Assembly: GCF_003664035.1 (NCBI RefSeq)
Contig: NZ_RCCK01000013.1
Coordinates: 434,001-498,000, forward strand
Source: Pedobacter alluvionis
GTDB taxonomy: Bacteria; Bacteroidota; Bacteroidia; Sphingobacteriales; Sphingobacteriaceae
Direction: 5' to 3'
DNA: 64,000 nucleotides
Shown here: piece after piece, positions 30,051-32,918 of the stretch
How positions within the stretch are numbered: the first letter of the stretch is position 1
How the letters are laid out: every line of letters starts with the position of its first letter
Made by a program: the position numbers and the translations under genes
Notes under the pieces: model-generated
What the model was told of the DNA's origin: nothing
Database searches by the model: none
The model's input: only the letters and a program-made list of their open reading frames with translations

Positions 30051-31676
30051 TTGAGTACAACGCTAAACCTCGAAAGTATTTTCGTTGAAGAGAGCCAGAT
30101 TCCAGATGAATTTAGGCTCACGGAAGAAATCAATCAAAAGGAGTTTCTGTCAAATGGAGAAATGAAACCATGGAACGGACCATTTAATGAAGTTTTTTCT
30201 CCGGTATGCGTAAAAACCCCTGAGGGCTTAAAACGGAAGCGTATCGGTAGTTTCCCTGTTTGCACGGAGAAAGAGTCTAGAGAAGCTTTAGATGCAGCTG
30301 TAGCCGCTTATGATAATGGCCGCGGGCAGTGGCCAACTATGAGCGTTGCTGATCGGATTAGCTGCGTGGAAAACTTTACGCATAAAATGATTGAGCAAAA
30401 GGAGATTGTTGCGAAGCTCATTATGTGGGAGATTGGTAAATCTTATGCCGATTCGGTAAAAGAGTTCGATCGTACAGTTGAATATATCTATGCTACGATC
30501 GATGCATTAAAAGATATTGACAGACAGTCATCGCGCTTTGAAATCGAGCAGGGAATTGTGGCCCAGGTACGCCGTTCTCCACTTGGGGTGGTACTTTGTA
30601 TGGGGCCGTTTAATTATCCTTTAAACGAGACTTTTACAACCCTGATCCCGGCTTTGATTATGGGCAATACGCTTTTATTCAAACCACCTAAACACGGTAC
30701 TTTATTACATTACCCTTTATTGGAGGCTTTCCGTTCCAGTTTTCCTAAGGGTGTGGTAAATACGATTTATGGTCGAGGCAATACAATCGTTCCGGGATTG
30801 ATGAAATCGGGAAAAATCAATGTGCTTACCTTAATTGGCTCAAGTAAGGTTGCCAACGAACTTAAAAAACTGCACCCTAAAGTAAACCGGTTAAGGGCTA
30901 TTTTAGGTTTAGATGCCAAAAATGCAGCGATCATCACCAAAGATGCCGACCTGGATTTAGCGGTTTCTGAAACCGTATTAGGTTCACTTTCTTTTAACGG
31001 ACAACGTTGTACAGCCATTAAAATAGTTTATGTACACCGCAGTTTAGCACAGGAATTTTTAAAACGTTTATCTGCAGAGGTAGAAAAACTGAAGTTTGGC
31101 ATGCCGTGGGAAAAAGGCGTAAACCTTACCCCCCTGCCGGAGCTGAACAAACCCGAGTATTTAAAAGAATGTATTGATGATGCCGTTTCGCACGGGGCAA
31201 AAGTGGTGAACAAAAATGGTGGACAAACTTTAGAAACTTTTGTTTATCCTGCCATTGTTTATCCCGTAAACAGTAACATGAAACTGTACCGCGAAGAGCA
31301 GTTTGGACCGATTGTACCTGTTGTGCCTTTTGATGACCTGGAAGAACCTATCGAGTATTTAATTGGCTCGCCACACGGCCAGCAGGTGAGTATTTTTAGC
31401 AACAATGCTGCGGTAATTTCTTCACTGATCGATCCTTTGGTTAACCAGGTAAGTCGTGTAAATATTAATTGCCAATGTCAGCGTGGACCAGATGTTTTTC
31501 CTTTTACTGGGCGTAAAGACAGTGCCGAAGGAACACTTTCTGTGGTGGATGCCCTGCGTTCGTTCTCTATCCGCTCTTTAGTAGCCACTAAGTTTACAGA
31601 GGATAATAAAAAGTTACTTAACGAAATTGTGAGGGGAGATGATTCGAACTTCTTAAGTACGAAGTATATTTTTTAA
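30051..31676 (+). CDS. NADP-dependent glyceraldehyde-3-phosphate dehydrogenase (GapN-like ALDH)
   Basis: A 541-residue aldehyde dehydrogenase of the non-phosphorylating GAPDH group. The nucleotide-binding part has GVVLCMGPFNYPLNETF and LIGSSKVANELKK. The catalytic glutamate is replaced in context by AILGLDAKNAAII, and the catalytic cysteine is in FNGQRCTAIKIVY. The C-terminal RGPDVFPFTGRKDSAEGTLS is diagnostic of GapN-like proteins. The start is a TTG at 30051, with no nearer ATG giving a full domain. KDPG aldolase just upstream produces glyceraldehyde-3-phosphate, so it may oxidise that product to 3-phosphoglycerate and generate NADPH. Substrate is inferred. Confidence 0.85.
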   Translation: MSTTLNLESIFVEESQIPDEFRLTEEINQKEFLSNGEMKPWNGPFNEVFSPVCVKTPEGLKRKRIGSFPVCTEKESREALDAAVAAYDNGRGQWPTMSVADRISCVENFTHKMIEQKEIVAKLIMWEIGKSYADSVKEFDRTVEYIYATIDALKDIDRQSSRFEIEQGIVAQVRRSPLGVVLCMGPFNYPLNETFTTLIPALIMGNTLLFKPPKHGTLLHYPLLEAFRSSFPKGVVNTIYGRGNTIVPGLMKSGKINVLTLIGSSKVANELKKLHPKVNRLRAILGLDAKNAAIITKDADLDLAVSETVLGSLSFNGQRCTAIKIVYVHRSLAQEFLKRLSAEVEKLKFGMPWEKGVNLTPLPELNKPEYLKECIDDAVSHGAKVVNKNGGQTLETFVYPAIVYPVNSNMKLYREEQFGPIVPVVPFDDLEEPIEYLIGSPHGQQVSIFSNNAAVISSLIDPLVNQVSRVNINCQCQRGPDVFPFTGRKDSAEGTLSVVDALRSFSIRSLVATKFTEDNKKLLNEIVRGDDSNFLSTKYIF

Positions 31677-31695: not shown

Positions 31696-31740
31696 AAGCC
31701 GCAAAACACAGGTATTAATCTGTGTTTTGCGGCTTTTTGT
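31696..31740 (+). terminator. Terminator after the GapN-like gene
   Basis: A 16-bp perfect stem, AAGCCGCAAAACACAG (31696-31711) with 31720-31735, an 8-base loop and a T-run. The motif TTATAAAAA...AAGCCG...CGGCTTTTTGT recurs at 31911-31953. Confidence 0.85.
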
Positions 31741-31755
31741 TTTGTATTCTTAGCT

Positions 31756-31888
31756 GTCATTCTGAACGCAGTGAAGAATCCCCAAACGATGAAAGGCAGA
31801 ACCCAAATTAAGTTATCTCTTAAAGATTAGATTATTTGAGAGGTTAGTACGCTTAACTAAAAGATCCTTCACTAGCGTTCAGGATGAC
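31756..31888. repeat. Long inverted repeat (GTCATTCTGAACGC type)
   Basis: The left arm 31756-31780 and the right arm 31863-31888 are imperfect reverse complements, separated by about 82 bases. The outer 14 bases (GTCATTCTGAACGC / GCGTTCAGGATGAC) match with one mismatch. Confidence 0.7.
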
Positions 31889-31921
31889 AAACTATGTTTT
31901 TTAAACTGGTTTATAAAAAGC

Positions 31922-31953
31922 AAGCCGTAAATCATGGATTTGCGGCTTTTTGT
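31922..31953 (+). terminator. Second terminator-like hairpin
   Basis: AAGCCGTAAATC (31922-31933) pairs with GATTTGCGGCTT (31937-31948) with one G.U pair, an ATG loop and a T-run. Together with 31696-31740 it looks like a duplicated terminator flanking the inverted repeat. Confidence 0.6.
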
Positions 31954-31960
31954 CTATAGT

Positions 31961-32062
31961 CCTCGTTTTGTAACGAGGATTAGCGAGATCCGCATTTGTA
32001 ATGCGGTATTATGCTATTGGCGATACAATCGCCATTCTCAGGCATCCTCGTTGCAAACGAGG
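31961..32062. repeat. Array of four hairpins with conserved loops and different stems
   Basis: CCTCGTT/AACGAGG (31961-31978), CCGCATT/AATGCGG (31990-32006), GGCGAT/ATCGCC (32019-32033) and CCTCGTT/AACGAGG (32046-32062) start 29, 29 and 27 bases apart. The loops are similar (TTGT, TGT, ACA, GCA inside TT...AA) while the stems differ, each one perfectly paired. Confidence 0.8.
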
Positions 32063-32125
32063 ACGATGATCATATTTATACGCCCAACTCTGTGTACTCA
32101 GTGAATTTTTCGGTGCACTCGGTGG

Positions 32126-32180
32126 TAAAAAATATAGTTGTCATCCTTCACTGCGTTCAGGATGACAACTATATTTTTTA
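32126..32180 (-). terminator. 22-bp perfect hairpin overlapping the acetylesterase stop codon
   Basis: 32126-32147 is the exact reverse complement of 32159-32180, with an 11-base loop. On the minus strand it follows directly and includes the TAA of the CE12 gene at 32178-32180. An A-rich run at 32127-32132 gives a T-run on that strand, so it should terminate the susCD operon. The GTCATCC/GGATGAC core links it to the other repeats nearby. Confidence 0.75.
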
Positions 32181-32918
32181 CTTCAAACTCTTTACCAAAC
32201 TCAATTTCAACTCTTTTATTCCGTTCACTACCAAACCTGCTACCTGTTTAGCGCCCTCCGGACTTAAATGCGTATTGTCTTTTTTGCCTTTAGGATAGTT
32301 TACATTCCCTGAATCAACATAATTGAATAATTTGATTGAAGGTTCATCTCCCAAGCGGATCAGTAAACTTTCCGTTTTCGCCAGCATATCGATTAAAGGA
32401 ACATTCAACGAATCGGCTACCTGGCGGGTTATGCCCGGGTAATCACCATGCGAATCTATCAAAACTCCGTTTTTAAAACTTCTGCGGGAGATTGGCGTCA
32501 GTAAAACCGGGAAAGCTTTTTTGCTCCGGATTTCTTTTACATAATTCACCAGATTGGTCTTAAAATCAGCCAACGAAACACCAACCGCTGGTTTGTCAAC
32601 TTTCTCATCATTATGCCCGAATTCGATAAACACATAATCTTCAGGGTTTAATTGAGCCAATATCGGATCCCAACGTTTTTCGGCCCTGAACGATTTGGTA
32701 CTCCTGCCATTTAAAGCCCGGTTATCAAGCGTAATATCAGTTTTAAAATAAGACTGTAGCACCATTCCCCAACCTGTTTCGGGATAGGCTTTTTCCTCCT
32801 TATTGGCCGCGGTAGAATCGCCGATGATGTACAGCTTTGTTTTCTTTTGAACAAAAGTAAAAGAGAATAAAACGGCCAAGGCCCCTGCCGCAAAAATCTT
32901 AAGGAAATTCGTTTTCAT
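32178..32918 (-). CDS. Rhamnogalacturonan/pectin acetylesterase, CE12 (SGNH hydrolase)
   Basis: A 246-residue exported SGNH esterase that removes acetyl groups from pectic chains. The signal peptide is about 1-24. The catalytic blocks are LYIIGDSTAANKE (Ser), FIEFGHNDEKVD (Asn/His block) and DNTHLSPEGA (Asp-x-x-His). The order and spacing match CE12 enzymes. Its gene starts 4 bases after the upstream pectinesterase stop. Confidence 0.92.
   Translation of the reverse strand: MKTNFLKIFAAGALAVLFSFTFVQKKTKLYIIGDSTAANKEEKAYPETGWGMVLQSYFKTDITLDNRALNGRSTKSFRAEKRWDPILAQLNPEDYVFIEFGHNDEKVDKPAVGVSLADFKTNLVNYVKEIRSKKAFPVLLTPISRRSFKNGVLIDSHGDYPGITRQVADSLNVPLIDMLAKTESLLIRLGDEPSIKLFNYVDSGNVNYPKGKKDNTHLSPEGAKQVAGLVVNGIKELKLSLVKSLK

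Follow-up and report, generated by a model that had tools for sequence, protein, structure and literature searches.

The array of four hairpins described here is in all likelihood one REPIN with REP units of a twin-hairpin type, and part of the REPtron of a 181-aa RAYT (REP-associated tyrosine transposase) from the same genome, that of Pedobacter alluvionis; the element very probably belongs to this RAYT, the gene of which lies elsewhere in the genome. The whole element occupies positions 31956..32067 of the window (the entire 64-kb stretch of DNA that was analysed) and resembles a REPIN, with two twin-hairpin REP units forming an inverted doublet. Both units matched covariance model R1 end to end, with E-values of 5.3e-17 and 3.2e-19, both having belonged to the set from which the model was built.

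Anatomy of the array and its surroundings

Four perfect hairpins with centres approximately 28 bases apart were located at 31960-32063: an 8-bp hairpin with loop TTGT (31960-31979), a 7-bp hairpin with loop TGT (31990-32006), a 7-bp hairpin with loop ACA (32018-32034) and an 8-bp hairpin with loop GCA (32045-32063). This was the sole run of four hairpins within 115 bases in the window (stem of at least 6, loop of 3-4), and no such run was produced in any of 60 dinucleotide shuffles. The four regular, perfectly paired hairpins reported at 31961-32062 by the first-pass annotation are thus real, but the element is longer than the annotated interval, and loop 1 has four bases in the window copy, compared with three in most other copies. 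The annotated difference between stems was confirmed for hairpins 2 and 3, to which it is limited; hairpins 1 and 4 have identical stems, since the unit forming hairpins 1-2 recurs in inverted orientation as hairpins 3-4.

Alignment of 32 units resolved a 50-base unit. It opens with AT, followed by hairpin 1, the 10-bp stem of which has a conserved G-T as its second pair and the loop of which has 3 bases; after three free bases, then GAGA and a single further base, comes hairpin 2, with a 7-bp stem and again a 3-base loop. The start of the unit was sharp (A in 39 and T in 40 of 40 copies), with a weak A/T bias farther out. From this alignment (A1), model R1 and the unit-start profile, unit A (stem 2 of CATT type) was placed at 31956..32006 on the plus strand, and unit B (stem 2 of GCGAT type) at 32018..32067 on the minus strand. 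Hairpin 1 has a 10-bp stem with one G-T pair in both units, closing loop TTGT in unit A (31958..31981, plus) and TGC in unit B (32043..32065, minus), while the GAGA of the linker, conserved in alignment A1, is found at 31985..31988 (plus) and 32036..32039 (minus), respectively. Hairpin 2 reads CCGCATT-TGT-AATGCGG in unit A (31990..32006, plus) and, on the minus strand, TGGCGAT-TGT-ATCGCCA in unit B (32018..32034).

The array sits between convergent genes, a putative aldehyde-dehydrogenase-like ORF ending at 31676 (plus strand) and a putative SGNH-hydrolase-like ORF at 32178-32918 (minus strand), both named from their translations. A terminator-like hairpin with a T-run is present at 31922-31948, ahead of the element on the plus strand, and is similar to a second terminator-like hairpin at 31696-31735 in the same intergenic region. 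In relatives, versions were observed with one such hairpin, followed by either a GTCATT repeat or the REPIN, and in view of these the region in the window looks like two alleles fused. Inverted repeats of GTCATTCTGAACG type were also present (31751-31890 and 32125-32181), including a perfect 23-base inverted repeat by the end of the SGNH gene, and apparently constitute a separate repeat family.

Hairpins in such a position could alternatively act as RNA, by providing the 3' end, a terminator or a stabiliser for the convergent neighbours, and have spread by recombination only. The units are indeed intergenic, the RNA fold of the doublet is very stable (z -9.7 and -8.1), and such a role has been hypothesised for REPs in the text of PMC3733652. 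We nevertheless consider an RNA role improbable, given that the plus strand already carries the terminator-like hairpin and T-run ahead of the element, that no Rfam family was matched at its gathering score, and that such a role predicts neither a RAYT gene within the family nor the tracking of RAYT clades by stems in the genus (see below). As to identity with a known RNA family, this was rejected: the Rfam scores were far under the cut-offs (26.5 versus 44 for JA03, and 24.1 versus 174.8 for BTnc005).

A dispersed repeat family with compensated stems

A BLAST search of 31900-32120 against the P. alluvionis genome gave 32 matches, and model R1 identified at least 42 units at E<=1e-4, a lower bound since 150 candidates were scored. 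Twenty-eight of the 42 form 14 inverted doublets, always with hairpin 1 on the outside, and the other 14 are singles; the family is dispersed over contigs C1-C6. Forty of the 42 units, those at fetched loci, were typed (15 A and 25 B). All 14 doublets combine one A with one B unit, and the remaining 12 typed units comprised 11 B and a single A, which lies 194 bases away from a B unit, the two being oriented as in a doublet. None of 38 units at 18 fetched loci of this genome (the window pair being outside this count) overlapped an ORF of at least 100 aa. The array is a member of a dispersed, intergenic repeat family, and both the inverted orientation of its two REP units and the dispersed, intergenic distribution are traits of REPINs. 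In a comparison aimed at target-site duplications, words shared between flanks averaged 9.4 for own pairs and 5.8 for crossed pairs (largest crossed value 33); as the longest were found at tandemly repeated loci, no duplication is deduced from the difference. At one locus (L023:1000-1200) a CCTCGTT doublet has GGGATT-family hairpins around it, which gives the impression of two repeat families adjoining or nested.

In the 32-unit alignment 96.1% of cells pair, and 69 cells were doubly changed, compared with 22.3 after shuffling. The outer pair of hairpin 1, for example, is paired in all 32 units, as CG (17), AT (8), TA (3), GC (2), GT (1) or TG (1). For two of the five covariation measures, some of the shuffles attained the value observed in this set, namely for the pairs changed on both sides (7 versus 6.0 shuffled, reached by 31 of 500 shuffles) and the further pair types (19 versus 17.5, reached by 125 of 500). 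With relatives included (98 distinct units) all five measures were clear of the shuffles (0 of 500), 94.6% of cells were paired and 239 were doubly changed against 88.4 shuffled, in an alignment that had been fitted to the structure and in which a large share of the stem-2 covariation reflects the A/B split, which has been passed on many times over. When the partner was shifted by 1-3 columns, pairing in the 98 units fell to 32-53%. The retention of pairing while stems change supports selection on structure, as had been proposed from the window alone, and the proposed compensation of stems was upheld as well, the family not being a recurrence of identical stems at many sites. The earlier impression that the array is no simple duplicated repeat was borne out with respect to its varied, compensated stems, but not in the literal sense, as the element is an inverted duplicate of one unit from a dispersed family.

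The G-T pair was kept in 87 of the 98 units, and the opposite strand would carry an A-C mismatch at this position. The pair may accordingly mark the strand, comparable to a conserved mismatch which, according to the text of PMC8266576, is required in the REPs of E. coli.

Many units start with AT-CGTC, which recalls the CGTC-tagged REP superfamily, said to lack a transposase. Membership of that superfamily is highly implausible and was rejected, since the C of CGTC varies (C, A, T or G) and is paired within the stem, with a matching partner base in all 32 units, while the real tag is described as unpaired in the text of PMC3733652; units with two hairpins, and a RAYT gene inside the family, also argue against it.

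The RAYT gene and the repeats across genomes

Seven Y1_Tnp matches were found in the P. alluvionis genome. One of these, a protein of 181 aa (G000:C6, locus L020), has its gene flanked by two full doublets of the same orientation; a worn third repeat copy lies farther out. Two traits of RAYTs were observed for it: the gene is flanked by the dispersed palindromic repeat, with a full doublet on each side, and the product is an HUH/Y1 protein of the REP_Tyr_transpos family (NCBIfam NF047646; 89.2 bits, cut-off 80), its score against Pfam Y1_Tnp being slightly under the cut-off (22.5 versus 23 bits). A phmmer search against PDB sequences yielded nothing up to E 1, so a fold search was needed. The AlphaFold model (pLDDT 94) of a P. 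suwonensis homologue, 87% identical, had PDB entry 4er8, an E. coli RAYT with a REP hairpin, as its best match (E 2.3e-8), followed by the ISDra2 and IS608 transposases. The P. alluvionis RAYT is an open frame in which the HUH and Y motifs are kept (NHIH, WQ, SS and YIHDNP, the last deviating from the printed YIH[QN]NP at one position). By these motifs and by its length, the protein fits TnpAREP subclass 2.6 / RAYT group 5. The search for a RAYT gene advised in the first-pass annotation thus returned one with full copies on both sides, which agrees with its suggestion of a transposase-recognised array; that the RAYT recognises the element is something we infer from association.

Two further transposase loci were noted. 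In the C2:1095277 region of the same genome (L011:1253-2173), a second twin-hairpin REPtron encodes a RAYT of 57% identity, with stems GGGATT/AAGGATT and CCGGATT. At L012:1129-1910, another Y1 transposase gene has GTCAGATG hairpins on its flanks; their loops span 3-4 bases, and they represent a repeat of a different type.

Among 119 genomes of the genus, 61 contained a RAYT homologue and 40 contained R1 matches (both at E<=0.001). At least 20 units were present in all nine genomes with a close RAYT (at least 75% identity over at least 120 residues) and in 5 of the 110 others (Fisher p 2e-10), the R1 counts per relative genome being lower bounds with 50 candidates scored in each. Five genomes without a close RAYT (G049, G072, G091, G109 and G114) held 38 or more units each; G072 is a single contig, so that an assembly gap is an unlikely cause of the absence. 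G094, which has a 46-residue piece of 80% identity and 13 units, was counted as being without a close RAYT, and two of the nine close RAYTs (G020 and G041) appear broken.

When 70 RAYTs of the genus were placed in a tree, each of the repeat families CCTCGTT (8), GCTCGTT (11) and GGGATT/CGGATT-type (16) fell on one side of a branch, the families being labelled by hand and the GGGATT-type group being mixed. At four outside RAYTs (L131, L133, L140 and L152) the double was an isolated one, and these were labelled weak or none; of the 70 loci submitted, L042, L059 and L139 had no RAYT ORF by motif and were left out. Hairpin doubles within 700 bases were found at 36 of 36 RAYTs of the twin-hairpin clade and at 4 of 34 outside it, and with a stricter filter no units were detected at 31 loci of other RAYTs. 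Within the genus, the stem family follows the RAYT clade.

Beyond the genus, agreement between enzyme and repeat was partial. Of 22 loci first fetched by a family search, 15 had a hairpin double (of another form at L174) and 7 had none, the RAYTs of the latter being 46-53% identical. Next to a RAYT from another genus (70% identical), one CCGCGTT unit with both arms changed and GAGA kept was present beside CCTCGTT units. Of 80 named loci, an enriched sample picked by similarity to the twin-hairpin clade, 47 had a hairpin double, in 41 cases with two 3-base loops, and 33 had none, where approximately 1.4 doubles of any form were expected from shuffles; four of the 80 were without an ORF by motif. 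Named hosts with doubles include Pedobacter, Mucilaginibacter, Dyadobacter, Paludibacter, Pontibacter and Phocaeicola. A strict correspondence of RAYT and repeat fails, on account of the unit-rich genomes without a close RAYT and the RAYTs beyond the genus without doubles.

A wider set of 141 RAYT loci (genus, family and named Bacteroidota, mostly picked by similarity to the twin-hairpin clade) was filtered for units in which hairpin 1 has at least 9 pairs, hairpin 2 is shorter and both loops have 3 bases, orientation being assigned by stem length alone. This gave 194 distinct units at 78 loci, with 39 different inner stem-1 7-mers and a commonest geometry of 10 bp, linker 7-9 and 7 bp; T was the first base of loop 1 in 184 and of loop 2 in 189 of the 194. 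Counted per locus, the same filter returned 225 units, spread over 89 of the 141 loci; three shuffled sets yielded none. Applied to the 64-kb window, it found only unit B of the element, unit A failing because of its 4-base loop.

At the window site, 20 relatives were fetched, 17 of which had both anchors (G058, G031 and G093 were unresolved): the element or part of it was present in 8 and absent in 9, and in G034 and G109 the stem of the B unit is CCCGATT, changed in both arms. The flanks were rearranged and the intergenic region mosaic, with no clean empty site or insertion point among the 20 relatives. Altogether, filled and empty alleles were observed at three sites (the window and two others of the P. 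alluvionis genome), with diverged or rearranged flanks and no exact junction fixed. At one of these sites (L028), a single B unit in P. alluvionis corresponds to full doublets in G020, G058, G031 and G072 and to a worn doublet in G068. The element is present there in G058 and G072, which are without a close RAYT, and the site is empty in G004, G176, G041, G011 and G051, which have one; G034 was unresolved, and G109 holds a different insert.

Units that outlive close RAYTs in five genomes, the apparently broken RAYTs of G020 and G041, the single L028 unit as opposed to doublets still complete in four relatives, and the rearranged window site could together indicate that the element is a remnant, once spread by the RAYT and now decaying and inactive. 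Such a history would be compatible with a RAYT-associated REPIN as regards identity, and not as regards present action. We regard it as rather unlikely, since the RAYT of this genome has an open frame with HUH and Y motifs and 94.6% of cells across the 98 units are still paired.

Proposed mechanism and comparison with known systems

For the REPIN and its RAYT we propose that, whenever the locus becomes single-stranded (for example as lagging-strand template), the hairpins would form, and that the RAYT, as an HUH/Y1 single-strand nuclease, would recognise one strand through the two T-first loops. Further recognition marks could be the conserved G-T pair, the TT/AA pairs adjoining the first loop, and the linker with its GAGA, which would potentially take the place of the GTAG foot of classical REPs. 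Cutting and rejoining beside a unit would spread copies as doublets, which would subsequently decay, often to a single unit B. Mobilisation, the cleavage site, the choice of strand and the role of GAGA are all putative.

More tentatively, and with somewhat under an even chance of being correct, Bacteroidota may possess a separate REP class whose transposase reads both hairpins together and whose stems drift with compensation; on this reading, a strand-specific code is retained instead of the GTAG guide known from previously studied RAYTs, namely a T opening each of the 3-base loops, stem lengths near 10 and 7 bp and approximately 7-9 bases of linker, and RAYT lineages would switch stems together with their repeats. 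If the two-hairpin reading is true, these lineages provide a natural series of matched enzyme-substrate pairs. In the published text, the repeats of Bacteroidota RAYTs have so far been atypical structures found by eye, without a GTAG foot. A two-hairpin consensus, a loop rule and natural stem variants would make the substrate of these RAYTs predictable, and GTAG-free recognition and the co-evolution of a domesticated transposase with its repeat directly testable; they also supply a usable search model for such repeats in Bacteroidota genomes.

RAYTs have reportedly been divided into groups by Bertels et al. in 2017, with group 5 said to equal TnpAREP subclass 2.6. According to the main text of Quentin et al. 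2018 (PMC6006769), most Bacteroidota members are in subclass 2.6, with proteins of about 179 aa carrying motifs NH[LIV]H, WQ, YIH[QN]NP and SS, and with flanking atypical structures without GT[AG]G that were found by hand and recur in the genome. The system described here is similar in its Bacteroidota host, protein length, motifs, atypical flanking structures without GT[AG]G and further genomic copies. It differs in that the structures are called weaker in that text, which does not appear to describe two-hairpin units, T-first 3-base loops, compensated stems or A+B doublets, although Table S1 or Fig. 7 of that paper may show some of these.

The REPINs or BIMEs of Pseudomonas and E. coli are likewise inverted, intergenic REP doublets, often of two unit types, with a RAYT between doublets. 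A classical REP consists of one hairpin with an unpaired GTAG foot, whereas the unit described here has two hairpins, no GTAG, and GAGA in the linker. A classical GTAG-tagged REP was ruled out by the conserved start AT followed by paired bases and by the two hairpins. IS608 and ISDra2 (IS200/IS605) share the HUH/Y1 fold and, in the text of PMC8266576, strand-specific hairpin recognition via a loop T; in contrast, the present analysis found no autonomous IS, the units are short non-coding sequences, and most of them lie away from the gene. The text of Di Nocera et al. 2013 (PMC3733652) distinguishes GTAG and CGTC families of REPs, with an unpaired CGTC tag in the second, and the twin-hairpin family is neither of the two as defined there. 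RAYTs and REPINs as a kind, and the association of Bacteroidota members with atypical structures, were known already; measured against the text of this literature, supplements and figures aside, the two-hairpin unit, the loop rule and the compensated stems are added here.
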